Shown: positions 23,675 to 44,373 of the stretch, piece after piece
Position numbering within the stretch: the first letter of the stretch is position 1
Layout of the letters: each line of letters starts with the position of its first letter
NCBI RefSeq assembly: GCF_030269485.1
Contig: NZ_BSTL01000009.1
Span: 248,001 to 312,000, forward strand
Length of the DNA stretch: 64,000 bases
Direction: 5' to 3'
DNA from: Actinoplanes sp. NBRC 103695
Lineage (GTDB): Bacteria > Actinomycetota > Actinomycetes > Mycobacteriales > Micromonosporaceae
Program-made: the position numbers and the translations under genes
The notes under the pieces: model-generated
Told to the model about the DNA's origin: nothing
The model's input: the letters and a program-made list of their open reading frames with translations, nothing else
Databases searched by the model: none

Positions 23675-24589
23675 TCAGATACCTCGTCCGCGCTTGTGCA
23701 GAGCCGACAGCACGTTCTCCACCTTGACCGCCCCGGTCATGGCGGCCAGCGCGATCGCGGTGCGCGGCTCTTTCCAGTTGGCGCGGACCGCCTCCTTGCT
23801 GAACTGCCAGGCGGCGCTGCGGTTGCCGGACGCCGCGGACCAGCAGGCCAGCTGGCCGTAGACGCGGGCGGCGCCCGGGCGGCAGCCGCTGATCTCCGGG
23901 TGGCGTTGCATCATCCAGCGCAGCGAGGAGATCTTGGTGGCGTACTCGTACGCGTAGTGGCTGGTGCGGCCCCACAGCACCCGGACCAGGGGCTCGTCCA
24001 GGTGCACGATGGGCCGCCGCCGGGCCGCCCTCAGCAGCAGGTCCCAGTCCTCGTTCTGGCTGCCCGGGGCGTCCTCGGCGACCATGCCGACCGCGTCCTC
24101 GGCCAGGGCCTCGCGGCGCATCAGGAACGACGACGAGTGCAGCATCGCCATCCGGGAGCGGGCCAGCTCGTCGATCGTGACCCGGCTGCGCCCGGCCAGG
24201 CGGGGCGTGACCTTGTCCTCGTACTCGACCTCGATCGCGCAGGTCGCGAACTCGGCGTCCGGCTCGGCGAGCAGGGCTGCAACCTGCCGGCGGAGCTTGT
24301 CGGGGCGCCAGAGGTCGTCGTCGTCGCAGAACGCCACCAGCTCGGTGTCCAGCGAGAGGATGCCGGTGTTGCGGGCGCCGGCCAGGCCGGGGGTGCGCCA
24401 GTTGGTGAGCACCAGCACCTGGGTGCCCTCGGTGCAGGCGAGCAGGTAGTCCGGCTCGGTCTGGTCGTACACGACGACCACCTTGACCTCGCCGGGGTAA
24501 CGCTGGTCCCGGACCCCGGCGATGGTCTTGCGCACCAGCTCGGGGCGGTTCCGGGTGGGGATCACGACGCCGACGGACGGCCAGTTCAT
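23675..24589 (-). CDS. Family 2 glycosyltransferase
   Basis: The 304-residue GT-A enzyme shows the nucleotide-sugar site VGVVIPTRNRPELVRKTIAG, then GLAGARNTGILSLDTELVAF and an Asp-rich metal site FCDDDDLW. These mark an inverting GT2 that adds a sugar to a lipid- or polysaccharide-linked acceptor. The ATG has AAGGAGG 4 nt upstream and overlaps the stop of the upstream sulfotransferase by one base. The pair forms the left-hand minus-strand arm of the exopolysaccharide locus. Confidence 0.88.
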   Translation of the reverse strand: MNWPSVGVVIPTRNRPELVRKTIAGVRDQRYPGEVKVVVVYDQTEPDYLLACTEGTQVLVLTNWRTPGLAGARNTGILSLDTELVAFCDDDDLWRPDKLRRQVAALLAEPDAEFATCAIEVEYEDKVTPRLAGRSRVTIDELARSRMAMLHSSSFLMRREALAEDAVGMVAEDAPGSQNEDWDLLLRAARRRPIVHLDEPLVRVLWGRTSHYAYEYATKISSLRWMMQRHPEISGCRPGAARVYGQLACWSAASGNRSAAWQFSKEAVRANWKEPRTAIALAAMTGAVKVENVLSALHKRGRGI

Positions 24590-25518
24590 CACGCCTCCTT
24601 CTGGGAGAGGGGGTATCCGTACGCCCGGAGTATCGGGCCGCACACGGTGCTGACCATCCGGCGCTGGGCGGGTGGCAGCGCGGACCGCCACGCGTCGTCC
24701 CGGCGCAACTGCACCCGGCCGACGGTGAAACGCATCGGGTTTCCGGCGGCGCTGTGCCCGACACCGAGATCGGCCTGGCCGGGCCCGAGAAAATCCAGAT
24801 CCTCGGGTACGAGGCTCAGCCCGGCGAAGCCGGCCAGCCTTTGCAGGGCGGCCCGTGGGTCGGTGAGGAGCTCCTCGTAGCGGACCCGTTCGACCGCGAC
24901 GCCGCGCCGGGCGAGCAGGCCGAACGCGGCGTTGTGCGCGTTCCAGAGCAGCGCCGAGCGGCCGGGGGAGTAGCGGGTCATCTCCTCGGCGCCGTCGGTC
25001 TCCGGCCGGGCGACGGTCTTGGTCCACGAGTACGCCACCCCGCGCGCGTCCCGCACCACGTGCACGACACGCAGGTCCAGGTCATCGGCGAAGCGCAGCA
25101 CGTGGGCCAGGGCGCTGTGCTTGGACGAGTCGACCACCACGCTCGAGCCGGACACCTCGGCAGCCGCGGCGTAGACCTTGGCGTAGTAGCCGGCGTACTC
25201 GCGCACCTCGTCCATCGGCATCTGCCCGGCGGCGAGCCGGGGGATGTGCCGGGTGCGCTCCACCAGGTCCTGAAGGGCGTGCACGCGCGCCACGTCGACG
25301 TTGCCCCAGCCGTTGAAGGCGCGTTCGCCGACCCGCTTCCAGAACGTGCAGGCGGCGAACCTGGCGCCGCACCCGCAGCGCTCGTTGTCGAGGATGTCGC
25401 GCTGCCACAGGTGCACGATCTCGCCGAGCGCGCAGACCGACGGGAGCTCGCCGAGCAGTCGTTCGACGAGCGTGGTCCCGCTGCGGCCCAGACCGCCGAG
25501 GTAGAGCACTCGTGCCAC
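24589..25518 (-). CDS. PAPS-dependent sulfotransferase (locus copy 1)
   Basis: The 309-residue protein has the 5'-phosphosulfate loop LGGLGRSGTTLVERLLG at its start and the 3'-phosphate motif VVHVVRDARGVAYSW near residue 155, with VVVDSSKHSALA between them. A Cys-rich patch (CGCGARFAACTFW) near residue 48 is unusual. It transfers sulfate from PAPS, probably to a glycan given its neighbours. The GTG start gives the phosphate loop at the right distance. It is divergent from the WecG/TagA gene across an inverted repeat and coupled to the downstream GT2. Confidence 0.86.
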   Translation of the reverse strand: MARVLYLGGLGRSGTTLVERLLGELPSVCALGEIVHLWQRDILDNERCGCGARFAACTFWKRVGERAFNGWGNVDVARVHALQDLVERTRHIPRLAAGQMPMDEVREYAGYYAKVYAAAAEVSGSSVVVDSSKHSALAHVLRFADDLDLRVVHVVRDARGVAYSWTKTVARPETDGAEEMTRYSPGRSALLWNAHNAAFGLLARRGVAVERVRYEELLTDPRAALQRLAGFAGLSLVPEDLDFLGPGQADLGVGHSAAGNPMRFTVGRVQLRRDDAWRSALPPAQRRMVSTVCGPILRAYGYPLSQKEA

Positions 25519-25527
25519 TTTGTCCCG

Positions 25528-25561
25528 CCTTCGCTCGTTTCGCTCCTATAACGAGCGAAGG
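25528..25561. promoter_or_regulatory. Inverted repeat in a divergent promoter region
   Basis: CCTTCGCTCGTT (25528-25539) and AACGAGCGAAGG (25550-25561) are perfectly complementary across 10 nt. They fill the 62-nt gap between the divergent sulfotransferase and WecG/TagA genes. It could be an operator controlling both arms, or a leader hairpin. Confidence 0.5.
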
Positions 25562-25580
25562 ACGTTGAAGGAGGCGTGGA

Positions 25581-26363
25581 GTGAGCGTTGAGGCATTCGA
25601 CCGGGTTCAGCTGGACGGAACGGGATTCGACCGGATCACCGAGTGCGAGGTGGTCGCCGTGGTGCGCGAGGCCATCGCATCCGGCCGAGGCGGACGGATC
25701 ATGACCCCGAACGTCGACATCCTGCGGCAGGCGCAGGTGAACAAGCGGGTACGCGGCTACCTGGACGACGCGGACCTGATCGTCGCGGACGGGATGCCGC
25801 TGGTCTGGGCCAGCCGGCTGAGCGGCACGCCGCTGCCCGAACGGGTCGCGGGCAGCAGCCTGATCTGGTCACTGTCCGCGGGCCTCGGCCGGGACGGGCG
25901 GTCGATCTTCGTGATCGGCGGCAACCCGGCCACGGCAGAGGCGGCGGACGGCGCGACCAGGGCGGCGCGGCGGCTCGCCGAGGACTGCCCGGGACTGCGG
26001 ATCGCCGGGACGCTGTGCCCGGAGTACGGCTTCGAACGGGATCGCAAGGTCTACGCCGAGTTCCGGGCCGCCGTGACCGCCGCACAGCCGGACCTGGTCT
26101 TCGTCGGCCTCGGCTTCCCGAAGCAGGAGAAGGTCATCACCAAGCTGCGCGAGGGCCTGCCGGACACCTGGTTCATCGGCTGCGGCGCGGCGGTGAACTT
26201 CGTCGCCGGGGACGTGGACCGCGCGCCGCGCTGGATGCAGCGGACCGGCCTGGAGTGGGCGCACCGGCTGACCACCGAGCCGGGGCGCCTGGCCGGTCGC
26301 TACCTCAAGCACGACGCGCCCTACGCCCTGCGGCTACTCACCGCGGCGGCCACGCGCCGCTGA
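25581..26363 (+). CDS. WecG/TagA/CpsF-family glycosyltransferase
   Basis: The 260-residue GT26 enzyme shows TPNVDILRQAQ, DADLIVADGMPLVWASRL, VFVGLGFPKQEKVI, GCGAAVNFVAG and the C-terminal membrane-docking segment RAPRWMQRTGLEW. Relatives add ManNAc or ManNAcA, or a hexose, to an undecaprenyl-linked first sugar, so it probably adds an early residue of the repeat unit. The GTG has AAGGAGG 6 nt upstream. Its last 30 nt overlap the convergent GH26-like lipoprotein gene, the only plus-strand gene between the two minus-strand arms. Confidence 0.9.
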   Translation: MSVEAFDRVQLDGTGFDRITECEVVAVVREAIASGRGGRIMTPNVDILRQAQVNKRVRGYLDDADLIVADGMPLVWASRLSGTPLPERVAGSSLIWSLSAGLGRDGRSIFVIGGNPATAEAADGATRAARRLAEDCPGLRIAGTLCPEYGFERDRKVYAEFRAAVTAAQPDLVFVGLGFPKQEKVITKLREGLPDTWFIGCGAAVNFVAGDVDRAPRWMQRTGLEWAHRLTTEPGRLAGRYLKHDAPYALRLLTAAATRR

Positions 26364-27377
26364 ACCGGGCCCGCCGTGCGGGGGAATCTGGTCGAAGTAC
26401 GGGTCCTTGGTCATCTTCTTGAACGACTGGAAGGCGGCCTTGTCCCCGGTCAGCTGGAACTGCTGATTCGGCCCGTTGCCCTCGGGGTCGGACTCGAAGT
26501 AGGCGACCCCCTTGATCTGCGGGTTCGCCTTGAACGTCCGGGCCGCGTCCTTCAGCCACGCGGCCCGGCTCGACGAGCCCCACGCCTTGGCCACCCCGAA
26601 CTCGCCGACGATGATCGGCTTGGGCCGCTGCGCCGCCCAGGTGAGGAACGGGCCCATCAGCTGCCCGATCGGCTGGAACTTGCTGCCGGCGTAGACGTCC
26701 ACGCAGGTCCAGTCGACCTGGTCGTCGCCGGGGTAGAACTCGGGTGCGTTGCCCCGGACGAAACCCTCGGCGGTCGGGCACCACACCCAGGACACGTTCG
26801 TCGTGCGTTCCTCGGCGAAGATCCTCCGGACGTACTTCCAGGCGGCGATGTAGTCGGCGCCGGACCACATGGTGGCCTGCAGGTTGGGCCGATCCATCTC
26901 CCAGCGCATCCGCAGCAGCACCGGCTTGTCCACCTTGCGGATCGCGCGGGCCTGCTCCCGGATGGTCCGGTCGTGCTCGCCGTCCACGATGGACCGGTTG
27001 TCGCCGGTCGCCCAGCTGATCATCAGATCCGCGCCGGTGTTCAGGAACTCCTGGTCGCTCTCGGTGCCGACCATCTGCTCGAAGCGGCGGTACGTGTTCA
27101 GGATGTTCAGCCGCCGGCCGAGGTCGTCCTCCAGCCCGTTCACGGCCTCGATCCGGCCGGCGTGGGTGAGCGACTCGGGCTTGATCCAGGCGCCCAGGTA
27201 GGCGCCCTTCTCCGGGGCCTCGAACGGGCCGGCCTCGAACGGTCCGGGATTGACCGCGACACCGGGCGGAGGCTTGCCGAGGTCGGCCGAGGGCGCCGGG
27301 GCGGGTTGTTTCTGGTCCGGGGTGGTGCACCCGGCGACCAGCAGGACCAGGACCAGGACGAGCGCGAGCCGCCTCAT
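26334..27377 (-). CDS. GH26-like glycoside hydrolase lipoprotein
   Basis: The 347-residue protein has a lipoprotein signal with lipobox LVAGC near residue 16, a Pro-rich spacer and a GH26-like (beta-mannanase family) TIM barrel. The acid/base Glu is in RMRWEMDRPN and the nucleophile Glu in IIVGEFGVAKAW; WVWCP and YPGDDQVDW are further family marks. It would sit outside the membrane and may trim or release the polysaccharide made by this locus. The start overlaps the methyltransferase stop (ATGA); the 3' end overlaps the convergent WecG/TagA gene by 30 nt. Confidence 0.85.
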   Translation of the reverse strand: MRRLALVLVLVLLVAGCTTPDQKQPAPAPSADLGKPPPGVAVNPGPFEAGPFEAPEKGAYLGAWIKPESLTHAGRIEAVNGLEDDLGRRLNILNTYRRFEQMVGTESDQEFLNTGADLMISWATGDNRSIVDGEHDRTIREQARAIRKVDKPVLLRMRWEMDRPNLQATMWSGADYIAAWKYVRRIFAEERTTNVSWVWCPTAEGFVRGNAPEFYPGDDQVDWTCVDVYAGSKFQPIGQLMGPFLTWAAQRPKPIIVGEFGVAKAWGSSSRAAWLKDAARTFKANPQIKGVAYFESDPEGNGPNQQFQLTGDKAAFQSFKKMTKDPYFDQIPPHGGPGSAARGRRGE

Positions 27378-28105
27378 CCGACGCGCCGTGCCGCGTAGAG
27401 GACGTTCACCGCGAACGCGTCGGAGCCGGGGAACCTCCGCGCCGCCGCGTCCGCCGCCCGCGCCAGCGGATGCTCGTGCAGCGACGGGGTGAGCATCGAG
27501 AAGCCGCGCCGCTCGACGATCTCGAACCCGTGCCGGCCCAGCAACTCGCCGACCTGCTGGTGGGACAACTCGGCGAACCACTGCTTCCCGCTGTGCCGCC
27601 GCGCCCGCAGGTGCCGGACCGACCGGGCGTTGCCGTGGTTCTCCACCACCAGCATGCCGGACCGTGGCGTGGGCAGGACCTTCGCCGCGAAGGCCAGCGC
27701 CCGGTCCCGCACGCCGGCGTCCACGTTGAGCAGCAGCCGGAACATGGTGACGATCGCGGGCAGCGCGGCGGGCACCGGCTCGGGCACCGGGCCGTCCGCC
27801 GCAACCTGGTGGAACTCGGCCCGCGAGCCCACCTCGGCGGCCTTGGCCATCATCTCGGCCGAGGTGTCGTAGCCGTGCGCGGCCCGGACCAGGCCGTGCA
27901 GCGTACGGATGGCCCGGCCGGTGCCGCAGGCGAAGTCGTGCTGCACCGGCGGCCGGCCGTCGAACTCCCGGGTCACCAGGCCACGCAGGTACGCCCGCTG
28001 CCGCTCGTTGATGCGGGACGCGTAGGTGTCCGGCGCGTAGGTCACACTCTCGTACTTCTCGACAGCCTCGGCGTCCTGGAACACCTTGGTGTAGTCGGTG
28101 GACAC
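27374..28105 (-). CDS. SAM-dependent methyltransferase of the polysaccharide locus
   Basis: The 243-residue protein has SAM motif I as HDFACGTGRAIRTLHG, AAHGYDTSAEMM for the second acidic loop, and AIVTMFRLLLNVD. Co-translation with flippase and hydrolase genes suggests it methylates the glycan or its lipid-linked precursor, but a small-molecule substrate cannot be excluded. The GTG has GGAGG 4 nt upstream, and this ribosome-binding site overlaps the flippase stop region. Its stop overlaps the GH26 lipoprotein ATG by 4 nt. Confidence 0.82.
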   Translation of the reverse strand: MSTDYTKVFQDAEAVEKYESVTYAPDTYASRINERQRAYLRGLVTREFDGRPPVQHDFACGTGRAIRTLHGLVRAAHGYDTSAEMMAKAAEVGSRAEFHQVAADGPVPEPVPAALPAIVTMFRLLLNVDAGVRDRALAFAAKVLPTPRSGMLVVENHGNARSVRHLRARRHSGKQWFAELSHQQVGELLGRHGFEIVERRGFSMLTPSLHEHPLARAADAAARRFPGSDAFAVNVLYAARRVG

Positions 28106-28114
28106 GGTTCCTCC

Positions 28115-29656
28115 TCAGGGGGGCGTGCGGCGGAATCGGAAGGCGGTCAGCGCCAGCCGCTCACGGAACAGCCAGGCGCCGAAGCAGAAGGCCGGCACGG
28201 CGATCGCCAGTGCCAGCGAGAGAGCGGCCGGTCCGTAGCCGAGCACCGTGGTGACCAGCCGGGGCAGCACCCCGAAGCACGCCACGGACAGCGCCGCGGC
28301 GGTCAGCGTGCCGGCGCCGAACGGATGCAGCCGCGCGTGCCGGGCCACCTGGAGCAGCGGCAGCAGGTTGTTCGCCAGCATCGCGCCGGCCAGGCCGAGC
28401 GCCGCCCCCATCGCGCCCAGGCGGGGGATCAGCAGCAGGTCCAGCCCGATCGTCAGGCCCAGCGCGACCAGCACGTTGGCGAGATTCCACGAGGTGCGCC
28501 CGGCCATCGAGAGCACCATGTCGACCATGCCGCATCCGGTCGCCACCAGCATCGCGCAGGCCAGCACCACGACCACCGGCGCGCCCGCGCGGTACTGCTC
28601 GCCGAACAGGCCCAGGTAGATCGGGGCGAACAGGATGACCAGCAGGTTGATCGGCCAGGTCACCAGGACCAGCCAGCCGGTCGCGGTGCGGTAGAGGTCG
28701 TTGGCGGTGTCCCGGTCGCCGGTCGCCAGCGCCTCCGCCAGGCGTGGCTGCACCGACTGCGAGACACCCTGGTTGGCGAACTGGATCAGGATCACGAAAC
28801 GGCCGGCCACCGCGTACACCGCGGCCGCGGCGAGCCCGCCGAGCGCGGCGACCAGCAACACGTCCACCCGCTGCACGGCGAGCTGGGCGACGCTGGCCAG
28901 GGCGCGCGGCGCGGTGAACCGCCAGAACCCGCGACGCAGCTCCCGGCGCTCGACCCGGCGGGTGCGCGACTCGTCCGGCCGCCCGGCCCGGTACGTGTTG
29001 CGCAGCGCGAACGCGGCCAGGATCGCCACCGGCAGATAGGGCACCGCCCAGGCCAGCGCGAACATCGGCAGCTCGACCGTTGTCCACAGGGCCGCGACGC
29101 CCGCCCCGGCCACCAGCAGCAACTGCAGCGTGCTGCGGAGGACCCGGTCGAGCATCACGGTCGGCCGCATCAGACGGTAGCCGCGGGTGGCGGTGAGCAG
29201 CACGTCGGCGAGCGCGGACAGCGGCAGGAAGACGGCCAGCACCCGCAGCCCCAGCACGTGCTCGGCGAACACGTGCGGCGACTCGTCCGCGGTGAGCCGG
29301 GCCACCGCCGGGGCGGCCAGCCACAGGGCGGCGCCGATCAGGCCGGACAGCAGGATCACCGGGGTCAGCCCGGTACGCAGGCAAGAGCCGAGCAGCTGGG
29401 TGCGCCCGGTGGCCCGCAACCGGCTGAGCCAGTAGACCAGGCCGGTCTGCGTACCCAGCTTGGCCAGGCCACCGCCGAGCACGAACGCGGCGGTGGCGGC
29501 GAAGAACGCGCCGGCCTGTTCGGCGCCCAGCGACCGGGCGACGATCCAGGTGACCAGCACGCCGGTCGCGCCGGCCAGCGCCATCCCGGCCATGTTGGCC
29601 AGCCCGCCGCGGGCCGCGCCGTGTCTGCCCTTCTCGGCGATCGCCGTGGCGGTCAC
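28115..29656 (-). CDS. Wzx-like polysaccharide flippase
   Basis: The 513-residue protein has about 14 hydrophobic segments and the MATE/MOP-superfamily pattern of oligosaccharide flippases, such as GATGVLVTWIVARSLGAEQ in helix 1 and GLIGAALWLAAPAVARLT. It would flip undecaprenyl-linked repeat units outward. The GTG at 29656 overlaps the upstream sulfotransferase stop as GTGA, which I prefer over the in-frame GTG at 29689 inside that gene. The loop near residue 230-245 is Arg/Glu-rich. It fits between the polymerase and methyltransferase genes in a coupled operon. Confidence 0.87.
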   Translation of the reverse strand: MTATAIAEKGRHGAARGGLANMAGMALAGATGVLVTWIVARSLGAEQAGAFFAATAAFVLGGGLAKLGTQTGLVYWLSRLRATGRTQLLGSCLRTGLTPVILLSGLIGAALWLAAPAVARLTADESPHVFAEHVLGLRVLAVFLPLSALADVLLTATRGYRLMRPTVMLDRVLRSTLQLLLVAGAGVAALWTTVELPMFALAWAVPYLPVAILAAFALRNTYRAGRPDESRTRRVERRELRRGFWRFTAPRALASVAQLAVQRVDVLLVAALGGLAAAAVYAVAGRFVILIQFANQGVSQSVQPRLAEALATGDRDTANDLYRTATGWLVLVTWPINLLVILFAPIYLGLFGEQYRAGAPVVVVLACAMLVATGCGMVDMVLSMAGRTSWNLANVLVALGLTIGLDLLLIPRLGAMGAALGLAGAMLANNLLPLLQVARHARLHPFGAGTLTAAALSVACFGVLPRLVTTVLGYGPAALSLALAIAVPAFCFGAWLFRERLALTAFRFRRTPP

Positions 29657-30534
29657 CGGGAACGCCAGACTGGTAGGCGGTCCAGCCACATCGCCAGCGC
29701 CTCGTCGTGCGAGGAGTAGTGCGAGGTCAGTTCGGCGCGGATCCCCGGGTCCATGTCGGACTGCCGGGGGCGGGCGTTGTGCCGCTCGAACTCCGGCCGG
29801 TCCAGGTGCGTCGGGAGGCCGAGGTAGGTCAGCACCTCGTCGTACACCTCCTCGGGATGGCTGAAGAAGCGTTCGCTCTCCACCACGTGGATCCGCTCCC
29901 GGCCGACGTGCTGGGCCATCACGCCGAGGTAGCGGGCGTACTCGCCGCGGCCGCGGTAGGCGTGGTGCTGGTGGGCGAAGCTGTAGTAGCCCGGGTCCTG
30001 GGCCAGCCGCTCCTCCTGGCGGTGCAGCCGGGCCGGTTCCAGGGCGAGCGCGTTGCCGAAGTCGCGTTCCCGCTCGAAGCCGCGCGCCACCTCGTGGTGA
30101 TGCTGCGAGTACGCGCGCTCCACCGGGTCACGGACCAGCACGATCAGCTTGGTGTCCGGCAGATCCTGGGCGATCCGGGCAACCGCCTGCGGGTGGTACA
30201 TGTAGTACGGGCTGGACTCGAAGGTCTGCGCCGGCACCCCGTACCGCTGCTGGATCTTGTCGGCGGTGCGCTGCAGCGGGAAGTGCGCGCGGTACCAGGA
30301 CATGCCCCGGCGGTAGGACGTGTCGAAGTAGTGCACGCCCTTGTGCAGCACCGCCTTGAGGATCGCCGGGTGCGCGGCCAGCGCCCGGTACAGCGACGTG
30401 GTGCCGCACCGCTGGCCGCCGCAGATCAGGAACGACGGCTTCATCCGGGCCGGCGAGGTGAGCCGGCCGTACGACCGGGATCCCAGGTGCACCACCCGCT
30501 TGACCGGCAGGGGCATCTTGCGTACGTCGATCAT
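29653..30534 (-). CDS. PAPS-dependent sulfotransferase (locus copy 2)
   Basis: The 293-residue protein resembles heparan-sulfate/NodH-type sulfotransferases. It has ICGGQRCGTTSLYRALAAHP (phosphosulfate loop) near residue 38, SSPYYMYHP, and LIVLVRDPVERAYSQHHHE (3'-phosphate site) near residue 130. It is a different subfamily from the sulfotransferase at 24589-25518. It would sulfate a sugar residue using PAPS from the APS kinase encoded at 35049. Its ATG directly abuts the stop of the APH-like gene, and its stop overlaps the flippase start. Confidence 0.88.
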   Translation of the reverse strand: MIDVRKMPLPVKRVVHLGSRSYGRLTSPARMKPSFLICGGQRCGTTSLYRALAAHPAILKAVLHKGVHYFDTSYRRGMSWYRAHFPLQRTADKIQQRYGVPAQTFESSPYYMYHPQAVARIAQDLPDTKLIVLVRDPVERAYSQHHHEVARGFERERDFGNALALEPARLHRQEERLAQDPGYYSFAHQHHAYRGRGEYARYLGVMAQHVGRERIHVVESERFFSHPEEVYDEVLTYLGLPTHLDRPEFERHNARPRQSDMDPGIRAELTSHYSSHDEALAMWLDRLPVWRSR

Positions 30535-31743
30535 CTACAGCTCCTCGACCCGGCGGATCAGCACCGGCAGCAGCCAGGTACCGAGCACGCCCAGGCGGGC
30601 GCCGGCCTCGGCCTGGCGATCGGTCAGATAACGGGCGGCCAGGTCGACCAGGTAGAGCAGCGCGGTCAGCTCACGGGCCTCCGGCGCCACGGCGAACGGT
30701 GCGAGCAGTTCGGCGGCCTGGCGTACGGTCGCCTCCACGGCGTCCTTCGCGTCGCCGGTGGACTGGATCCGCCGCTGCAACGCGTGGTGCACGGCGTCGA
30801 AGCCGACCGGCACGCCCTGCGCGAACCGCTCCCAGTCCCAGACCAGCAGCGCATCGGTCAGGTTGGCCATGTTCCACGGGGCCCAGTCGCCGTGCCACGC
30901 CCCGTACCGGAAGGTCGTCGCCCCGGACTGCCGCACCAGAAGCTCGGCCGCCGCACCCAGCGCGACCCCCTCCGGCCGGTCCTGCACCGACGCCAGGCGG
31001 GCGCGCAGCTCGGTCCAGTACGGGCTGCCGACCAGCTGCCCCGCGGTGTATCCGCAGCACCCGGCGATGTCGACCATCGCCGCGGCCAACCGGCGCGGGG
31101 TCAGCGGGGCACGCGGCAACCACACCGGCAGCGCCGACTGCACCAGCACCTGCAGGCCGCGCCACTGCCCGGCGTGCAGCACGGTCGGCACGGTCAGCTT
31201 GGTCAGCCCCGAGCGCTGCAACGCGATCAGCGCGTTGGTCTCGGCCCGGACCAGGCGCTGGGTGAGCGGACCGGTGCCCAGCTTGCCGAAGCCGAACGTC
31301 TCGCCCTCCGGGCTGATCAGCTGCAGCACCGGTTTACGGTTCGCCCGCGCGGGTCCGATGTGGATGCTCACGGCCAGCTCACGGCCGAGCGCCTCGCGCA
31401 GGTGCCCGTCGACGCTCTCCGGCCCGGTCACCTTGATGCGGTCGCGGAGCAGGACCCCGGACGCCCCGGTCCGCAGCGCGGCGACCACCGCGTCCCGCTT
31501 GAGCCGGGCGGCGCGCGACTGCGGTTCGGCGTACCGCCGGACGGCGGCCGCGGCGACCTTGCGCGACCCGGCCGGCACCAGCAGGCGCGGCCGGCGCGCG
31601 TCGGGCACCACGTAGTACTCCGCGACCTGATCACCCTCGCCGTTGGTGGGATAAAGGAGGTCGATGACCTCGGTCAGGTACTGCGCGCGGAGTGCGGCGT
31701 CACCGGCTGTCAGCGCTGCCGGAGCGGTCTTGACTGGACTCAT
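30535..31743 (-). CDS. APH-like kinase of the polysaccharide locus
   Basis: The C-terminal half of this 402-residue protein has the aminoglycoside-phosphotransferase-type catalytic loop HGDWAPWNM and a following metal site LLVWDWERF. The N-terminal half, with RPRLLVPAGSRKVAAAAVRR and FGFGKLG, may form the nucleotide-binding lobe. APH-fold kinases phosphorylate small molecules, sugars or lipids. The coupled genes suggest a sugar, lipid carrier or glycan as substrate, but this is inference. The ATG overlaps the polymerase stop (ATGA), and the stop abuts the sulfotransferase ATG. Confidence 0.75.
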   Translation of the reverse strand: MSPVKTAPAALTAGDAALRAQYLTEVIDLLYPTNGEGDQVAEYYVVPDARRPRLLVPAGSRKVAAAAVRRYAEPQSRAARLKRDAVVAALRTGASGVLLRDRIKVTGPESVDGHLREALGRELAVSIHIGPARANRKPVLQLISPEGETFGFGKLGTGPLTQRLVRAETNALIALQRSGLTKLTVPTVLHAGQWRGLQVLVQSALPVWLPRAPLTPRRLAAAMVDIAGCCGYTAGQLVGSPYWTELRARLASVQDRPEGVALGAAAELLVRQSGATTFRYGAWHGDWAPWNMANLTDALLVWDWERFAQGVPVGFDAVHHALQRRIQSTGDAKDAVEATVRQAAELLAPFAVAPEARELTALLYLVDLAARYLTDRQAEAGARLGVLGTWLLPVLIRRVEEL

Positions 31744-33110
31744 GCATCCCCCTTCAGGGCTCGTTTCCCAACGAGCCCTGCGTCGTTGCGCCAGAGCAGC
31801 GCGAAGGCCAGAACCATGAAGGCCAGGGGGGTGGCCAGCGAGTTGTACCAGAGCATCGCGGAGAACGAGGTGACGATCGAGGCGCTCGCGGCGATGCCGA
31901 TCGGGCTGCGGTCGCGGCGGAACCGCCACAGGCCGTACAGGAAGAAACCGAGGTAGCCGATCGTCCCGGCGGCGCCGTGCGCGAACATCAGCTGCCACAG
32001 CTGGCCGTTGCCGCCGACCGTGAAGTTGCCGCAGCGTTCGCAGCTCGCGCTCTCGCCGACGGTGATCGAGTTGCGGCCGCCGATCGTGTTGCGGGTGGAG
32101 CCGTACCCGATCACCGGCGAGTCGAGGAAGCCGTCGATCGCCCGCTCCATCAGGAACGACCGCACGCCGTTGGACTTGCCGTTGTCCAGCCGCGCGTTCA
32201 CCGTGTCGCCCAGCGGGCTGGCCAGCAGTGCCACCAGCAGGGCGGCCCCGGCGACCGCGACCGCGCCGATGATCCAGAGCTTGCCGAGCAGCACGTAGCG
32301 GAAGGCGACGTAGAGGATCAGCACGCCGAGGCCGATCCACAGGCCGCGGTTCAGCGACACCACCGCGGGGGCGATCGCGATGCCCAGGCAGCCGACGGCG
32401 AACACCTTGGGGCCCAGCCGCTTGGACGCCCAGGCGGCGACCACCAGCCAGCCGGCCAGCAGGCAGAAGTTGTTGCCCCAGGTGTTGGTGTAGCCCCACG
32501 GCGCGGCCGGGCGGGGCTTGTCGCCACCGACCAGGTCCATGATCTGCGCCGCGTACGGATGGACCAGTGACTGCACGAAGCCCTTGCTCCGGACGCTCTG
32601 CGGCAGCAGCCACTCCACCGGCGAGGTGAACTCGAACGACCCGGCGAACATGCCCAGCAGTCCGCCCCCGACGGTCACCACGAACAGCCAGCCGAGCAGC
32701 TTCACCAGCCGGCGCCGCGGCAACTCGGTCTCGGTGAGGTTCCCGGCGTAGAGCAGCAGGACGGTCATCGTCAGGTAGAGCGTCAGCCGGTAGCCGACCG
32801 AGATCAGCCGGTCCGAGGCGTGCTCGGCGACCGTGCCCGGCGGGTCGACGCCGAGCGCCGCGACGCTCACCACGACCGCCGCCAGGAACAGCCCCCACCA
32901 GGCGAACCCCGGCGGCATCAGCAGCCGTCGCCCGCCCGCCCGCCGCTTGAGCAGCATGACCAGCATCGGGAGGGCCATGATCGGGAAGATCAGCACGCCC
33001 AGCCCGAGAGCCCACCACAGTGGATAGAGCGCCAGGATCGCGGTGATCGGCCAGGCCGGGAGGGGAGCGAGGGTCTTCTGCGTCCGTAAGGGCGGGGCGA
33101 GGACCGTCAC
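31740..33110 (-). CDS. O-antigen ligase / Wzy-like polymerase
   Basis: The 456-residue protein has about 11-12 membrane segments and a large extracytoplasmic loop near residues 320-380 (VIGYGSTRNTIGGRNSITVG), the pattern of the O-antigen ligase/polymerase superfamily. A typical stretch is GYTNTWGNNFCLLAGWLVVA followed by VVSLNRGLWIGLGV. It would polymerise lipid-linked repeats on the outer face. The GTG overlaps the Wzz-like gene stop (GTGA), and the stop overlaps the next ATG, so it sits in a fully coupled operon. Two Cys in the large loop (SCERC) may form a disulfide. Confidence 0.85.
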   Translation of the reverse strand: MTVLAPPLRTQKTLAPLPAWPITAILALYPLWWALGLGVLIFPIMALPMLVMLLKRRAGGRRLLMPPGFAWWGLFLAAVVVSVAALGVDPPGTVAEHASDRLISVGYRLTLYLTMTVLLLYAGNLTETELPRRRLVKLLGWLFVVTVGGGLLGMFAGSFEFTSPVEWLLPQSVRSKGFVQSLVHPYAAQIMDLVGGDKPRPAAPWGYTNTWGNNFCLLAGWLVVAAWASKRLGPKVFAVGCLGIAIAPAVVSLNRGLWIGLGVLILYVAFRYVLLGKLWIIGAVAVAGAALLVALLASPLGDTVNARLDNGKSNGVRSFLMERAIDGFLDSPVIGYGSTRNTIGGRNSITVGESASCERCGNFTVGGNGQLWQLMFAHGAAGTIGYLGFFLYGLWRFRRDRSPIGIAASASIVTSFSAMLWYNSLATPLAFMVLAFALLWRNDAGLVGKRALKGDA

Positions 33111-34822
33111 TCGTCCTTCTCGCCGTCCTGCTTGAGCGGCGCGAGCTCGATCACCGCGGTCGGCGGTTCGTCCACGCTCTTGCGGGGCGCCGGGCGGTTG
33201 GCCAGGCGCATGGTCTTCTCGGCGTCCAGGATCGCCGTGTCCTCCGGCGACGGGCCGCGGCTCTGCATCGGCGGGGTCAGCGCGACGGCCGGCGGGTGGA
33301 TCTCGGCGGCGCGCAGCCCGGTCAGCCGCGGCAGCACCACCGCGCCCAGCAGCGGGGTGCCCACCCGGCGCAGCTGCTCGGCCGCGTCCACCAGCATCGG
33401 GCGGCGCGCCTTGCGCAGCTCGACCGCGAGGATCGCCGCGTCGGCCAGGCTGGCCAGGCTCTGCGCGTCGGCGCTGCTGCTGGTGGACGGCGCCTCGATG
33501 ACCACGTACCCGGTCTGCCGGCGCAGCGCCTCCAGCGTGTCCCGCAGCCGTTGCGACTGCATCAGCCCGGCCGCGGTCGCCGCGCCGCCGGTGGTGATCA
33601 CCCGCAGCGACGGGATGCGCGGGGTCCGTTGCATCGCCCGGCTCAGCGCGGTCCGCCCGGCCAGCAGGTCGGAGAGGCCCGGCACGGCGTTGACGCCGAG
33701 CATCCGGGCCAGCGGCGCCGCGTCCACCATGCTGTCCGGCAGGTGCGCGCCGATCAGCACCACGTCGCTGCCGGTACGCGCCAGCGCGGCCGCCAGGTTC
33801 GCCGCGACCAGCGTGCTCGCCGACCCGCGGCTGGCGCCGGTCACCACGATGATCTTGTCGCTCGGGTCGAGGCTGGCCAGCACCTCGTTGCGCAGCCGGT
33901 TGAAGACTCGCCCGCCCGGCCCGTACGGCTGGAGCACGTCGTCGAAGTGCGGCGTGGTCCGCTCGTCCAGCGCGGCCAGCACCGGCATCCGGGCCCGGTC
34001 CCGCACGTCCGCCGCGGTCCGTAGCCGGCGGTCCAGCCGCTCCCGGGCGAACGCCAGCACCAGCCCGGCGAGCAGGCCGAGCATCGTTCCGGTGGCGATG
34101 TTCACCATCGCGTTCGGGCTGGTCGGCTCCTCCGGAACCCGGGCGTCACTGATGATGCTGCCGGCCGCCACCGTCGTCGTGGTCAGCTCGTTCAGCCGCC
34201 CGGTCATCGAGTTCAGCTGGTTCTGCGAGTTGCTGCGCAAGCTTTCCAGGTTGGCCCGCTCCGAGCTGCCCTGCAGGGAGTTGGCCAGCCGCCCGTTGAT
34301 CGAGGTCAGGTTGGTGGTCAGCTGCCGGATCTTCAGCGACAGCGACTTGATCTGCGAGTCCAGGCCGCTGCGCGCGGTCTGCTCCCGGTTCCGCAGGTAC
34401 GCCTCGGCGAACGCGTGCGACCCGGCCTGCGCCTTCTGCGGCGTGTCCGCCTCGAAGCGGATCACCAGCACGGTGGTGTTGGCCGGTACCTCCACCGAGA
34501 CGTCGTGCGCCAGTTCGAGCGGGTTGACCCCGCTGCGCAGCAGGGCGGCCGCCTTCACCGCCACCGCGCCCGAGCCGACCAGTTGCGCCTCGGTGTCCAG
34601 GTTGATCGAGCCCTTGGTGCGTCCGCCGGACTGGTTGGTGTCCTGCTCGACGGCCTGCACCAGCACCGACGTGCTCGACTCGTACACCTTGGGCAGCGTG
34701 CTGGTCAGCGCCGCGCCCAGGCCTAGGCCGGCGCCGGTCGCCGCCAGCACGACCCACCAGTGGCGACGGACCATGCCGACGTAGTGCGAGAGGTCGGCGG
34801 ATCCGGGGCGAGTCGCTTCCAT
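33107..34822 (-). CDS. Wzz-like co-polymerase with degenerate BY-kinase domain
   Basis: The 571-residue protein has the Wzz architecture: membrane helix at about residues 21-41, a periplasmic-type coiled-coil region, and a second helix near residue 240-260. It continues into a BY-kinase-like cytoplasmic domain. The nucleotide motifs are altered: Walker A appears as GASRGSASTLVAANLA without the catalytic Lys, Walker A' as VVLIGAHLPD rather than a DxD pattern, and Walker B as YVVIEAPS. No C-terminal Tyr cluster is present. It probably sets chain length without kinase activity. It is the first gene of a seven-gene overlapping operon; its ATG has only a weak ribosome-binding site. Confidence 0.86.
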   Translation of the reverse strand: MEATRPGSADLSHYVGMVRRHWWVVLAATGAGLGLGAALTSTLPKVYESSTSVLVQAVEQDTNQSGGRTKGSINLDTEAQLVGSGAVAVKAAALLRSGVNPLELAHDVSVEVPANTTVLVIRFEADTPQKAQAGSHAFAEAYLRNREQTARSGLDSQIKSLSLKIRQLTTNLTSINGRLANSLQGSSERANLESLRSNSQNQLNSMTGRLNELTTTTVAAGSIISDARVPEEPTSPNAMVNIATGTMLGLLAGLVLAFARERLDRRLRTAADVRDRARMPVLAALDERTTPHFDDVLQPYGPGGRVFNRLRNEVLASLDPSDKIIVVTGASRGSASTLVAANLAAALARTGSDVVLIGAHLPDSMVDAAPLARMLGVNAVPGLSDLLAGRTALSRAMQRTPRIPSLRVITTGGAATAAGLMQSQRLRDTLEALRRQTGYVVIEAPSTSSSADAQSLASLADAAILAVELRKARRPMLVDAAEQLRRVGTPLLGAVVLPRLTGLRAAEIHPPAVALTPPMQSRGPSPEDTAILDAEKTMRLANRPAPRKSVDEPPTAVIELAPLKQDGEKDE

Positions 34823-34963
34823 CGGTTCGGCGGCCCTTTCGGGGGTGAGTTGTTCGGTCGGCAGATCGGGCGTTTCGCCCCACGAGGGGTAAACGGGCTT
34901 TCTGCGTTCGCGTAACTCATTGAGCCGAACTGGTCTTGATTCAAGGAAAAAGACAAGATCGAT

Positions 34964-35026
34964 GTCGTAGGTGGGTGGGTGGTGCTGACCGTCGCTCCCG
35001 CCGAGGGTCGCTTCGCTCCACGTGCG
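34964..35026 (+). repeat. 63-nt intergenic repeat (family C, copy 3)
   Basis: It is the closest relative of 14923-14985, differing at only a handful of positions. It lies between the start of the Wzz-operon and the stop of the APS-kinase gene, a 226-nt gap otherwise holding only A/T-richer sequence at 34900-34955 that may contain the operon promoter. Confidence 0.8.
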
Positions 35027-35048
35027 TGATTGGTTGCGCTCCTCCTGC

Positions 35049-36569
35049 CTACGGCAGTTTGGGCTCGACCCAGCCGTTCTCGACGAGGTAGGCCAGCACC
35101 GAGTCGATGGCCTCGGGGATGGTGATCGTCGTGGTGTCGATCGTGAGCTCGGCGTCCGTCGGGACCTCGTACGGGTCGTCGATGCCGGTCAGGCCGCGCA
35201 GCTGGCCGGCCCGGGCGCGGGCGTAGAGGCCCTTGCGGTCGCGCTGCTCGCACACCTCGAGCGGGGTGTTGACGTGCACCAGCACGAATCCGGCGCCGGC
35301 CTCCATCGCACTCCGGCGGGACGCGGCGCGGGCCGACTCGTACGGCGCGATCGGGCAGGCGATGGCCATCCCGTGGTGCCGGCCCACCTCGGCCGCCACC
35401 CAGCCGATCCGGCGTACGTTGCGGTCCCGGTCGGCCTTGCTGAAGCCCAGCCCCGCCGAGAGCTCGCGGCGCACCACATCGCCGTCCAGCAGCGTGATCG
35501 TGCGCTCGCCGTCCTCGCGCAGCCGGTCGGCGAGACCCCGCGCCACGGTCGACTTGCCGGAACCGGAGAAGCCGGTGAAGAACACCACCAGACCGCGGAA
35601 GCGCCGGGCCGGGCGCATCCGGGCCATCTCCTTGGCCACCGCGGGCGGGGTGTGCCACTCGGGCAGCGGGAAGCCGCGGTCCAGGGTGTCGTTGATCTCC
35701 GCGATGGTCATCGCCAGCCGGCGGTTGCGCGGCGGGATGTCGTCGCGCCAGCGCCACTGGCCGTCGCGGTTGTCGTACGCCAGCTCCCGCGGCACCAGCA
35801 CCCGCAGGCCGCCGCCGGACAGCATCTCGCCGGTGGACAGCACGTGCGTGACGCCGTACGACTGGGCCACCCGCGCGCGCAGCAGGGCGTCGCGCATCTC
35901 GTCGCCCCGCGCGACCAGCGGGACCGCCACGATCGTGGCCGGGGGCATCCGGTCGCGGGCCGCGAAGATCGCCCGCACCAGCGACTCCGGCGGCAGGCCC
36001 TCCGGACCCGGGCCGGTCACCGGGATGAAGATCAGCAGGTGCGCGGCCAGCGTGCGCGCGGCGTGCGCGATCTGCGCCAGCTGCGGGCGGTGCAGCGGCC
36101 GGTCGGCGATCACCCCGAGCACGCGACCCGGAGGCAGCAGCGCCTTCACCTCTTCCGGGGTACGCCGCAGCCGCTGGAACGGGCCGTGCCCGCCGTCGCC
36201 CATCCGGCGGACCGCCCCGCCGACCGCGGCGAGACCGTCCTTGGTGGGCCAGGTGTCGGTCACCTCGATCGCGGCGACCGGCGCACCCTCCGGGTCGGTG
36301 ATCACCACGGCCCGGCGTATCGGATCGTCCGGGTCGAGCCTCGCGGCCATCTCGGCCGGAATCTCGAGCGTCACCGCGACCGGCCACCGCGTTCCGTCGG
36401 CGAGCCGGCCGGTCCGCCGCAGCGCGGTCAGATCGGCCCGGCCGAGAAAGCCGGTGAGCGGCGCATAGGCCCCGGAGAGCAACAGCTCGAGATCCGCCAG
36501 CTCATGGGGCCGTGGCGTGTACGACGGGGCGTCGCGCACCACATCCTCGGGCAGCATCGAACCGTTCAC
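35049..36569 (-). CDS. cysC: APS kinase fused to a degenerate ATP-sulfurylase domain
   Basis: In this 506-residue protein the last 190 residues are a complete APS kinase: P-loop FTGFSGSGKSTVARGL, DGDVVRRELSAGLGFSK, PYESARAASRR and GLYARARAGQLRGLTGIDDP. It phosphorylates APS to PAPS. The first 300 residues have the sulfurylase fold, but the catalytic QxRNPxHxxH motif reads VIADRPLHRPQ and the GRDxAG motif reads STGEML, so ATP-sulfurylase activity is doubtful. The second GTG of two is chosen for its AGGGGG 8 nt upstream. It probably supplies PAPS to the two neighbouring sulfotransferases. Confidence 0.88.
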   Translation of the reverse strand: MNGSMLPEDVVRDAPSYTPRPHELADLELLLSGAYAPLTGFLGRADLTALRRTGRLADGTRWPVAVTLEIPAEMAARLDPDDPIRRAVVITDPEGAPVAAIEVTDTWPTKDGLAAVGGAVRRMGDGGHGPFQRLRRTPEEVKALLPPGRVLGVIADRPLHRPQLAQIAHAARTLAAHLLIFIPVTGPGPEGLPPESLVRAIFAARDRMPPATIVAVPLVARGDEMRDALLRARVAQSYGVTHVLSTGEMLSGGGLRVLVPRELAYDNRDGQWRWRDDIPPRNRRLAMTIAEINDTLDRGFPLPEWHTPPAVAKEMARMRPARRFRGLVVFFTGFSGSGKSTVARGLADRLREDGERTITLLDGDVVRRELSAGLGFSKADRDRNVRRIGWVAAEVGRHHGMAIACPIAPYESARAASRRSAMEAGAGFVLVHVNTPLEVCEQRDRKGLYARARAGQLRGLTGIDDPYEVPTDAELTIDTTTITIPEAIDSVLAYLVENGWVEPKLP

Positions 36570-36701
36570 CGTCACATCCCCCTGGAGCCGACTGGAGGAC
36601 AGTTTCGCAGCATGGGCTGATCCGGTCGAGCCGGGCTCGATCGTCACCTTCCCGGGGCACATGTTAGACAAAACGGACAACAGGTCGAATACTGGGCGAT
36701 C

Positions 36702-38003
36702 GTGAGACGCCCCCGCCGCTTGCGGCTCCTTCATCTGGCCGCTGTGACCACGGCATTCGCGCTGTCCGTGGTCACCACCCTCGCCTGGGCATGGACCGGC
36801 GGCGTCGACGAACTCGGGATCCCGCTGCCGTACAGCCACCCCGGCGCCTCCGGCCCCGGATCCGCCGCCGACGGCAGCCCGACCGTGCACGTGGATCCGA
36901 GCAACGGCTGGATCGACCCCACCGCGCCCGAGCCGGGCGTGCCCGCCGTACCCGATCAAGGTCTCCCGGGCCGGCCCACCACCGCCGCGCCCTCCACCGC
37001 CGGGCCGGACAGAAGGCCGCACCCGGCACCGCCGGTGCGCAACCCCTCCTGCCGCACCGGCGAGAAGCTGGTGCCCACCTGCGGCATCCTCTGGGGCGTG
37101 GCCCCCGGCGCGTTCACCGAGCAGCGCGGAGCCGTGGCGCTCGCCGCCTTCGAACGCAAGACCGAGCGGCACCAGGACATCTACCACGCCTACCACCGCG
37201 GCGAGAAGCAGCTCTTCCCGACGAAGGAGGAGATCGGGATCGCCCGCGAGAGGGGCCGCGAACGGCTGCTCTTCCTCAACTGGAAACCGGTCGGGGCGTC
37301 CTGGGAGGAGATCGCCGAGGGCGACAAGAAGACCGACGCCTACCTCGACCGGCTCGCCAAGCACATCAGGAAGAACTACCGCGAACAGTTCTTCTTCACG
37401 GTGCACCACGAGGCCGAGGACAACGTCCGGGAGAAGTCCGGCTCCGGCTACACCGCCGACGACTACGCCAAGATGTACCGGCACGTCGTCAAGCGGCTAC
37501 GCGCCAGGGGCGTCGACAACCTGGTCACCGTGCTGGTCCACATGGCGTACGTGCCGCACACCACGAAGAGCTGGTTCGACCGGATGTACCCCGGCGACGA
37601 CGTGGTCGACTGGATCGGCTTCGACACGTACGCGTACAGCGACCCCGGCTATGGCCACGGCGACCTCACCGAACTGCTCAACCGCCGGATGGGCAGCCGG
37701 CCCACCTGGCCCGGCTTCTACAACTGGGCGGTCAACCGGCACGCCGACAAGCCCCTGATGGTCGCCGAGTGGGGCGTCTGGAGCTCGAAGAAGAACCCCG
37801 GCCACAAGGCCGGCTTCTACCGGGACATGGCCCGGCAGATCCCCCGCTTCAAGAACATCCGAGCCATGGTCCACTTCGACACCCCGCACAACCAGAAGGG
37901 CATGGACTCCCGCGTCGACGCCACGAGAGAGTCCCTCGCGGCGTACCGCAGGCTCGGCCACCTCCCGATCTTCCAGGTCGAGGTCGACAACGCCCTGTCC
38001 TGA
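36702..38003 (+). CDS. Secreted or membrane-anchored GH26-like hydrolase
   Basis: The 433-residue protein has an N-terminal hydrophobic segment (LAAVTTAFALSVVTTLAWAW) acting as signal or anchor, a long Pro/Gly/Thr linker to about residue 110, and a GH26-like barrel. Catalytic Glu candidates are in FFTVHHEAEDN and LMVAEWGVWSS; MYPGDDVVDWIGFDTYAY is family-typical. It is related to the lipoprotein at 26334-27377, so the locus is bracketed by two such hydrolases. The GTG follows TACTGG by 6 nt, suggesting a leaderless start. It is divergent from the APS-kinase gene. Confidence 0.82.
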   Translation: MRRPRRLRLLHLAAVTTAFALSVVTTLAWAWTGGVDELGIPLPYSHPGASGPGSAADGSPTVHVDPSNGWIDPTAPEPGVPAVPDQGLPGRPTTAAPSTAGPDRRPHPAPPVRNPSCRTGEKLVPTCGILWGVAPGAFTEQRGAVALAAFERKTERHQDIYHAYHRGEKQLFPTKEEIGIARERGRERLLFLNWKPVGASWEEIAEGDKKTDAYLDRLAKHIRKNYREQFFFTVHHEAEDNVREKSGSGYTADDYAKMYRHVVKRLRARGVDNLVTVLVHMAYVPHTTKSWFDRMYPGDDVVDWIGFDTYAYSDPGYGHGDLTELLNRRMGSRPTWPGFYNWAVNRHADKPLMVAEWGVWSSKKNPGHKAGFYRDMARQIPRFKNIRAMVHFDTPHNQKGMDSRVDATRESLAAYRRLGHLPIFQVEVDNALS

Positions 38004-38184: not shown

Positions 38185-38401
38185 TCGGTGGTAGGAGCAG
38201 GCGCGAGTGGTAGGACCAGCACGCGGTGGTGGGTCAGCGCGGGGTCCAGGCCGAAATACCGCGCTGAGCTACCACGGTCCGCGGGAGTGGTAGCCGGGAG
38301 CGGTCTGGCGGTGCCGGGTGGCGCCCGGTCCTACCACCGGCCGCGACGGAGGCCGGCCGGGGCGATCGTGGCGGGCCGTCCGGGCCCGGGATGCCGCCTG
38401 T

Positions 38402-38526
38402 GCGGCTACCACTCGGCTGTGCGGCTACCACTCGGCTGTGCGGCTACCACTCGGCTGTGCGGCTACCACTCGGCTGTGCGGCTACCACTCGGCTGTGCGG
38501 CTACCACTCGGCTGTGCGGCTACCAC
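38402..38526. repeat. 19-nt tandem repeat, six perfect units plus a partial
   Basis: GCGGCTACCACTCGGCTGT repeats without change at 38402, 38421, 38440, 38459, 38478 and 38497, with a partial unit from 38516. The 19-nt period rotates through all frames, so a protein-coding role is excluded. CTACCAC (or GTGGTAG) heptamers also occur elsewhere in this gap and in the one after 62597. Confidence 0.95.
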
Positions 38527-38533
38527 CGTTGGC

Positions 38534-38578
38534 GGCGGCTACCACCGTGAGTGGGCACCCCGGTCGCCTGGCGACCCG
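38534..38578 (+). repeat. Copy of a GC-rich intergenic repeat (family D)
   Basis: The stretch containing GTGAGTGGGCACCCCGG and CCTGGCGACCC matches sequence at 62994-63044, 63064-63114 and, inverted, 62670-62721. It directly follows the 19-nt array. After it come three near-repeats of ACCTGAGAG at 38656-38685. Confidence 0.55.
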
Positions 38579-44325: not shown

Positions 44326-44361
44326 TCCGGGGGTTCCATCCGGTGATCGATTGTGGACGAG

Positions 44362-44367
44362 TACGGT
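44362..44367 (+). promoter_or_regulatory. -10 box deciding the start of the GGDEF-EAL gene
   Basis: TACGGT ends 6 nt before the GTG at 44374. This favours that start over an in-frame GTG at 44353 that precedes the box. Confidence 0.5.
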
Positions 44368-44373
44368 GCTGAT

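Follow-up and report, generated by a model that had tools for sequence, protein, structure and literature searches.

A predicted sulfated Wzx/Wzy-type polysaccharide locus of Actinoplanes, its conservation across Micromonosporaceae and a candidate starter enzyme

Introduction

What polymer is made by a bacterial gene set that joins two sulfotransferases to Wzx/Wzy-type export genes, where does its activated sulfate come from and which enzyme starts it? These questions are raised by a locus at positions 23,675 to 38,003 of a 64,000-nucleotide stretch of the 10.8 Mb genome of Actinoplanes sp. NBRC 103695 (contig NZ_BSTL01000009.1, positions 248,001 to 312,000), the whole of which is referred to here as the window. 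An initial annotation, made from the DNA letters, had proposed a sulfated surface polymer of a kind seldom described for this group. Gene content, synteny across genera and families, linkage to an adenosine 5'-phosphosulfate (APS) kinase and to CysQ, and the deletion phenotypes of orthologous genes all favour that reading, and we put at about 80% the probability that this locus directs Wzx/Wzy-dependent synthesis of a heteropolysaccharide that is sulfated and probably carries methyl and phosphate groups as well. The proposal is no longer new, as an orthologous locus has since been described with the same prediction; the sulfate itself is still predicted.

The core claim of a sulfated polymer from this gene set is therefore already published. 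In June 2026 Tezuka and Ohnishi described wps-1 of Actinoplanes missouriensis, with wpsA (GT2), wpsB (sulfotransferase), wpsC (TagA), wpsD (DUF4262), wpsE (GH26), wpsF (methyltransferase), wpsG (Wzx), wpsH (sulfotransferase), wpsI (kinase-like), wpsJ (Wzy) and wpsK (Wzz), together with AMIS_7390, and predicted a sulfated sporangium polysaccharide whose verification they say is still awaited (PMC13390465). The portions of that paper drawn on here do not treat a starter phosphoglycosyltransferase (PGT), conservation, loss of the sulfurylase motif or a second GH26 protein, and its main text has zero occurrences of 'conserved', 'initiat-', 'phosphotransferase' and 'Micromonosporaceae'. New relative to the publication are the order-wide conservation of the cluster, its PGT-cysQ-cysD-cysN partner operon and a reinterpretation of the APS kinase.

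Results

Gene content and relation to wps-1

The seven minus-strand genes first proposed to run from 34822 to 26334 (Wzz, Wzy, kinase, sulfotransferase ST2, Wzx, methyltransferase and GH26 lipoprotein) were recovered with gaps of -4, -4, 0, -4, +9 and -4 bp, in keeping with the earlier remark that they overlap or abut, and the flanking WecG/TagA transferase, second sulfotransferase (ST1) and GT2 enzyme were confirmed by position and family. The APS kinase is also present beside the run, but fused to a degenerate ATP-sulfurylase domain that the initial annotation did not mention. Gene models were based on codon-position G+C content, families and homologues, with families called at Pfam and NCBIfam cut-offs; third-position G+C of 0.92-0.97 across all genes originally named represents a strong coding signal.

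One locus of another genome (L270 of G140) has this cluster too, a DUF4262 gene separating TagA from the GH26 lipoprotein gene (GH26a), and every window gene has an orthologue there at 59-90% identity. Mapped against L270, the order GT2, ST1, TagA, GH26, methyltransferase, Wzx, ST2, kinase, Wzy, Wzz with an adjoining APS kinase matches wps-1, and the window locus is thus the wps-1 orthologue of another species. It differs in having no wpsD, the window TagA and GH26a genes instead overlapping at their 3' ends.

Normal sporangium formation in A. missouriensis depends on the orthologous genes (PMC13390465). Deletion of wpsA, wpsC, wpsG, wpsH, wpsI, wpsJ or wpsK gave squashed sporangia, deletion of wpsE or wpsF had other kinds of effect on sporangia or spore release, and deletion of wpsD had none; without wpsB, sporangium shape was normal and about 10^7 instead of 10^8 spores were released (PMC13390465). 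Loss of AMIS_7390 left the strain macroscopically unchanged on either medium and caused severe sporangium defects, which the authors called 'unexpected' (PMC13390465).

Conservation across genomes

Among 150 genomes of the Micromonosporaceae, ST2 has matches at E 1e-20 or better in 130 (paralogues included) and a match of at least 50% identity in 111, its nearest named relatives belonging to Jidongwangia, Actinoplanes, Pseudosporangium, Couchioplanes, Paractinoplanes and similar genera. The search for the whole gene set in the family, which the initial annotation had envisaged, found all eight core genes in 69 of the 80 best named loci, within stretches of up to about 21 kb, which argues for clustering beyond chance. 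Five of the remaining 11 loci are short stretches (<16 kb) and six are of full length and lack GT2 and ST1, five of these also lacking TagA. The common order in 40 stretches compared in detail around ST2 is GT2-ST1-TagA / (GH26a)-methyltransferase-Wzx-ST2-kinase-Wzy-Wzz. The TagA-ST1-GT2 block is inverted as a unit in L068, L071, L078, L088 and L100 and was not found within the L089 stretch, while L091, L092 and L094 hold a divergent version of the cluster and L095 and L096 a divergent paralogous one.

Across 298 genomes of the order, 72 gave a match to a Wzy profile; 18 of the 72 belong to other families, and the loci of 17 of these 18 were compared. Ten (L140-L149) keep Wzx, ST2, kinase and Wzy together, most with Wzz and several with ST1, GT2 and TagA; L150 and L151 are rearranged clusters, and in L152-L155 and L159 hardly anything remains apart from Wzx, Wzy and GT2. 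Conservation of the core extends over genera of the Micromonosporaceae and reaches some other families of the order. A wider, phylum-level spread was set aside: a kinase profile matched 16 of 396 genomes, including the present genome and one more family member, and the other 14 are matches to the kinase profile alone.

Named holders of the cluster include Asanoa, Catellatospora, Hamadaea, Longispora and Phytohabitans, which are not known to form Actinoplanes-type sporangia. A sporangium matrix is thus unlikely to be the sole role of the polymer, and, judging by this distribution, it may have an older and more general function on the surface of spores or hyphae.

A candidate starter enzyme in a distant operon

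No PGT is encoded in the window cluster. The genome has five Bac_transf proteins, one of which (C7:133869-135668) heads a compact PGT-CysQ-CysD-CysN operon. The distribution of this PGT was read from the CysQ neighbourhoods of 88 of the 150 family genomes, chosen rather than drawn at random, 30 being the best CysQ matches and the others selected so as to represent the genera and to include genomes that lack the cluster. A second CysQ copy was included for G001, G003, G037 and G045, and one copy each for G010 and G068. With the canonical cluster, the PGT lies directly upstream of CysQ in 52 of 54 genomes (in G037 at the second CysQ copy). Without the cluster, it stands beside CysQ in 0 of 31 genomes, though CysQ is present, as are CysD and CysN in most. 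In five of these 31 (G034, G060, G079, G093 and G105) an ST2 orthologue adjoins the APS kinase; the absence of polymer genes was read directly at G060 (L090) and taken from the same spacing in the other four. A Fisher test of 51 of 54 against 0 of 31, with the second CysQ copy of G037 uncounted, gives p = 4e-20 and ignores shared descent.

The association also holds within genera. In g23, G022 has cluster and PGT and G053, G073 and G089 have neither; the same contrast separates G046 and G083 from G097 in g5, and G054 from G074 in g24. The operon directly adjoins GT2 in L080, L284, L285 and L291, which represent three genera, and also ST1 in the first three of these. Of 19 genomes outside the family, 12 have the cluster, and the PGT is beside CysQ in 6 of these; it is beside CysQ in 0 of the 7 that lack the cluster. 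One genus (g52 of family f9; G170 and G157) again shows the PGT with the cluster and none without it. Four of the other six cluster genomes, all of family f16, have a PGT inside the cluster stretch itself (L141, L143, L144 and L145), and in 8 of the 12 no more than 50 kb separate CysQ from Wzy. On these genome neighbourhoods, the missing starter enzyme is probably the PGT of the distant operon. We found no account of a PGT-cysQDN link in actinomycetes in the open-licence literature searched.

An unlikely alternative is that this PGT primes a different polymer, for example imp, described as the main matrix polymer (PMC12691653), and that it co-occurs with the cluster through shared ancestry. 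The disregard of phylogeny in the Fisher test leaves room for this, the genome has four other Bac_transf proteins, and the portion of the imp description drawn on here gives GT4 and GT2 transferases and names no PGT (PMC12691653). It sits poorly with the contrasts within g23, g5, g24 and g52, with the operon adjoining the cluster in three genera and with the PGT in the f16 cluster stretches. As it concerns a single step, it could hold together with a sulfated Wzx/Wzy-type polymer.

Sulfotransferases

ST1 and ST2 both belong to Sulfotransfer_3 (PF13469), the match by which ST1 (49 bits, cut-off 27) is assigned as a sulfotransferase. They are as unlike as had been supposed, ST1 being different from and more remote than ST2 by alignment and profiles. 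The ST2 profile matches 3rnl, 3-OST-5 (E 1e-23) and NDST in the PDB, and the ST2 model, with a mean predicted local distance difference test score (pLDDT) of 89.3, resembles 3rnl and heparan sulfotransferases most closely (Foldseek E 1.7e-11 to 3-OST-3). This predicted fold together with a PAPS-binding motif (PAPS, 3'-phosphoadenosine 5'-phosphosulfate) points to a PAPS-dependent carbohydrate sulfotransferase of heparan type.

That ST1 and ST2 stay with Wzx, Wzy and glycosyltransferases over long evolutionary distances, that ST2 groups with carbohydrate sulfotransferases and that the sporangia of a wpsH deletion strain are squashed just like those of wpsJ, wpsG or wpsK deletion strains (PMC13390465) make it improbable that the polymer is unsulfated and that ST1 and ST2 modify a lipid, peptide or small metabolite distinct from it that happens to be encoded nearby. 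Such a view can appeal to the sulfate being a prediction so far and to L090 of G060 (genus g34), which shows that the enzyme can exist without the cluster.

At L090 (9528-12139) a lone ST2 orthologue stands beside the APS kinase with no polymer genes, between DeoR/GalT genes and an ABC transporter, which are the flanks of the cluster in Actinoplanes-type genomes; it is probably a remnant or a re-used enzyme.

The present genome holds further loci in which sulfotransferases accompany polymer genes. At about 152-168 kb of C4 (L020:12225 to L021:8362) a second, paralogous cluster has its own PGT, Wzz-like protein, GT2, Wzy, Wzx, an ST2-like protein (41%) and a kinase homologue, and most genomes of genus g4 have matches of this paralogous type and no main cluster. 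At about 123-143 kb of C19 (L022:5444-10206, L023:358-5017) four Sulfotransfer_3 proteins lie close together, and about 10 kb beyond them a further sulfotransferase is accompanied by a flippase, a Wzy_C protein and a protein with a weak Wzz match, making this a third such place in the genome.

APS kinase and PAPS supply

The APS-kinase protein aligns best with 3cr8, a two-domain APS kinase, and has an intact P-loop (GFSGSGKST) and a clear APS-kinase domain. The catalytic motif of ATP sulfurylase is QxRNPxHxxH. It reads QTRNPMHRAH in the fungal enzyme, QARQPMHRAQ in 3cr8 and IADRPLHRPQ in the window protein, whose altered residues, from R153 to Q159, vary little or not at all in an alignment of 25. 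A bifunctional PAPS synthase is not indicated, as the loss of the sulfurylase motif is the conserved state of these 25 sequences. An APS kinase with an ATP-sulfurylase-like N-terminal domain is likewise found in Thiobacillus denitrificans (3cr8), in which the motif is less degenerate than in the window protein. The two-domain layout is also shared with an Entamoeba enzyme (23vk), whose sulfurylase-like domain is catalytically inactive and whose composition the T. denitrificans protein resembles (PMC13213808).

With the sulfurylase motif lost, and CysD and CysN encoded elsewhere in the genome, the fusion is most likely a PAPS-making APS kinase. Such a role would explain the 'unexpected' sporangium defect of the AMIS_7390 deletion, a gene linked to sulfur amino acids in PMC13390465, and the published mutant would become evidence for sulfation. 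The protein at 35049-36557 is the only strong APS kinase of the genome (a second match has E 1e-3). In 78 of 111 genomes no more than 20 kb separate it from ST2, and in 22 of 106 genomes CysQ, the phosphatase of 3'-phosphoadenosine 5'-phosphate (PAP), is at most 50 kb away from ST2. Present in 149 of the 150 family genomes, the APS kinase must serve other sulfation too; its presence was rejected as a marker of the cluster, position alone being informative. The annotation-based reading in PMC13390465, in which the fusion serves cysteine synthesis and its link to the cluster is incidental, is consistent with this near universality and with annotation as sulfate adenylyltransferase/APS kinase, yet is very improbable given the altered motif, CysD and CysN elsewhere, the proximity to ST2 and a deletion strain that is macroscopically unchanged and has severely defective sporangia.

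Polymer machinery and tailoring enzymes

The flippase-polymerase-chain-length set is present, with MatE and Wzz (PF02706) above their cut-offs and Wzy_C 1.2 bits under (30.5 against 31.7), the Wzy protein being conserved in place in an alignment of 20. The Wzz protein has a C-terminal domain like that of bacterial tyrosine kinases (BY-kinases), and the Walker A lysine is missing from this domain in all 36 sequences aligned, each of which has 0 or 1 tyrosine in its last 60 residues. An active kinase of the Wzc type was rejected on the absence of this lysine and of a tyrosine-rich tail.

The protein first described as aminoglycoside-phosphotransferase (APH)-like had no Pfam match, and a search with the kinase alignment gave no PDB sequence match. 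Its AlphaFold2 model (pLDDT 89.8) has the fold of APH, choline kinase and fructosamine kinase (best Z 15.5, root-mean-square deviation 4.0 over 248 residues), and H284, D286, N291, D303 and E305 of the HGDxxxxN and WDxE motifs are invariant in 25 sequences. Fold and motifs together assign the protein to the APH/choline-kinase superfamily, and it may act on a sugar or small molecule.

GH26a carries a signal and lipobox (LVAGC) read from the sequence. It falls 0.6 bits under the Pfam cut-off (19.6 against 20.2), and its family profile matches the GH26 enzyme CtLic26A at E 4e-31, with E160 and E259 invariant in 20 sequences. The second protein, GH26b, is above the PF02156 cut-off, with E237 and E356 invariant in 19. 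Both proteins thus combine a GH26 profile with two catalytic glutamates and match CtLic26A best in the PDB. As this closest solved relative is an 'endoglucanase H', a lichenase, assignment as mannanases was set aside.

Features and neighbouring genes

Coordinates are given in Table 1. The ST1 and GT2 genes overlap by 1 bp, with TagA on the plus strand beside them, and the APS-kinase gene is 226 bp upstream of the Wzz gene. The GH26b gene diverges from the APS-kinase gene and marks the upper end of the interval initially annotated. For Wzx we chose the GTG start at 29656, a GTG at 29689 being the upstream alternative.

Table 1. Genes of the locus in window coordinates, with the evidence for each assignment.
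Feature	Position	Strand	Evidence
GT2 glycosyltransferase (wpsA orthologue)	23675..24589	-	PF00535; orthologue in equivalent place in L270
ST1, predicted PAPS-dependent sulfotransferase (wpsB orthologue)	24589..25518	-	PF13469 above cut-off; alignment of 20
WecG/TagA/CpsF (GT26) glycosyltransferase (wpsC orthologue)	25581..26363	+	PF03808 and TIGR00696 above cut-off
GH26a lipoprotein glycoside hydrolase (wpsE orthologue)	26334..27377	-	Lipobox LVAGC; GH26 profile
S-adenosylmethionine methyltransferase (wpsF orthologue)	27374..28105	-	PF13649/PF13489 below cut-off; L270 orthologue
Wzx-type flippase (wpsG orthologue)	28115..29656	-	MatE PF01554
ST2, predicted heparan-type sulfotransferase (wpsH orthologue)	29653..30534	-	PF13469; PDB profile and fold matches
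Predicted APH/choline-kinase-fold kinase (wpsI orthologue)	30535..31743	-	Model, fold matches, motifs
Wzy-type polymerase (wpsJ orthologue)	31740..33110	-	PF04932 slightly below cut-off; alignment of 20
Wzz with BY-kinase-like domain (wpsK orthologue)	33107..34822	-	PF02706; TIGR01005/TIGR01007 below cut-off; alignment of 36
APS kinase with degenerate ATP-sulfurylase-like domain (AMIS_7390 orthologue)	35049..36557	-	PF01583 181.6 bits; closest solved structure 3cr8
GH26b, second GH26-type protein	36702..38003	+	PF02156 above cut-off; CtLic26A match

Beyond the locus, at 38391-38560, the open frame preceding an ABC-transporter ATPase opens in a short tandem repeat (VRLPLGCAATTRLCGYHSA-like); this part is probably non-coding, with the true start lying after it. 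A PAS-GGDEF-EAL protein, of the type that turns over cyclic di-GMP, is encoded a few genes from the cluster at 44353-46998.

Discussion

Our results provide a model for how a split pathway could build a sulfated polymer. The PGT of the distant PGT-cysQ-cysD-cysN operon would load the first sugar on undecaprenyl phosphate and the TagA-type and GT2 enzymes would extend the unit, which ST2, ST1, the methyltransferase and the APH-fold kinase would decorate at the inner membrane side. Wzx would then flip the unit for polymerisation by Wzy and Wzz, and the two GH26 hydrolases may trim or release the polymer outside. For sulfate supply, CysDN would form APS, the pseudo-sulfurylase/APS-kinase fusion would convert it to PAPS and CysQ would remove PAP. 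Galactofuranose and glucose have been suggested as donor sugars on the basis of trees (PMC13390465).

Several points weigh against this model. Sulfation of the polymer is so far a prediction. The normal sporangium shape of the wpsB deletion indicates that ST1 is less important than ST2, and the APS kinase is not specific to the cluster. Two genomes, G030 and G024, carry the cluster and have no PGT beside the CysQ examined, and the divergent cluster is accompanied by the PGT in 0 of 3 genomes (G045, G082 and G023), CysQ itself lying beside ST1 and GT2 in G045 and G082. An assignment of donor sugars from TagA or GT2 was set aside, the NCBIfam equivalogs scoring far below cut-off.

On balance we incline, by a modest degree, to a broader interpretation in which a surface glycan, sulfated and perhaps phosphorylated too, is an ancient feature common to the Micromonosporaceae and several sister families. 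Its pathway would be split between the wps cluster and a PGT-cysQ-cysD-cysN operon that are gained and lost together, would employ a heparan-type sulfotransferase and a pseudo-sulfurylase APS kinase, and would have been in use before sporangia arose. If true, conservation of such a polymer throughout a large antibiotic-producing family would change the view, expressed in the cluster papers cited, of bacterial sulfated polysaccharides as rare outside cyanobacteria, and would be relevant to the construction of spores and sporangia. The PGT-cysQDN link provides a candidate for the first enzyme, which the cluster itself lacks.

Two characterised systems are close in composition. The xss (synechan) cluster of Synechocystis likewise combines a Wzx/Wzy/polysaccharide co-polymerase set with two sulfotransferases of different subfamilies, and differs in having eight glycosyltransferases and its own regulators; the portion of its description drawn on here does not mention PAPS or an APS kinase (PMC8205485). 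Synechan sulfate was shown chemically (PMC8205485). The capsule cluster of Cobetia marina, as here, brings cysN/C, cysD and cysQ together with polysaccharide and sulfotransferase genes, and differs in its ABC-transporter (Kps) export and its size of about 70 genes (PMC11766843). Bacterial sulfated polysaccharides are called exclusive to cyanobacteria in PMC13390465 and PMC8205485; the structurally determined sulfated repeat unit of Cobetia marina is a proven case outside that group (PMC11766843).

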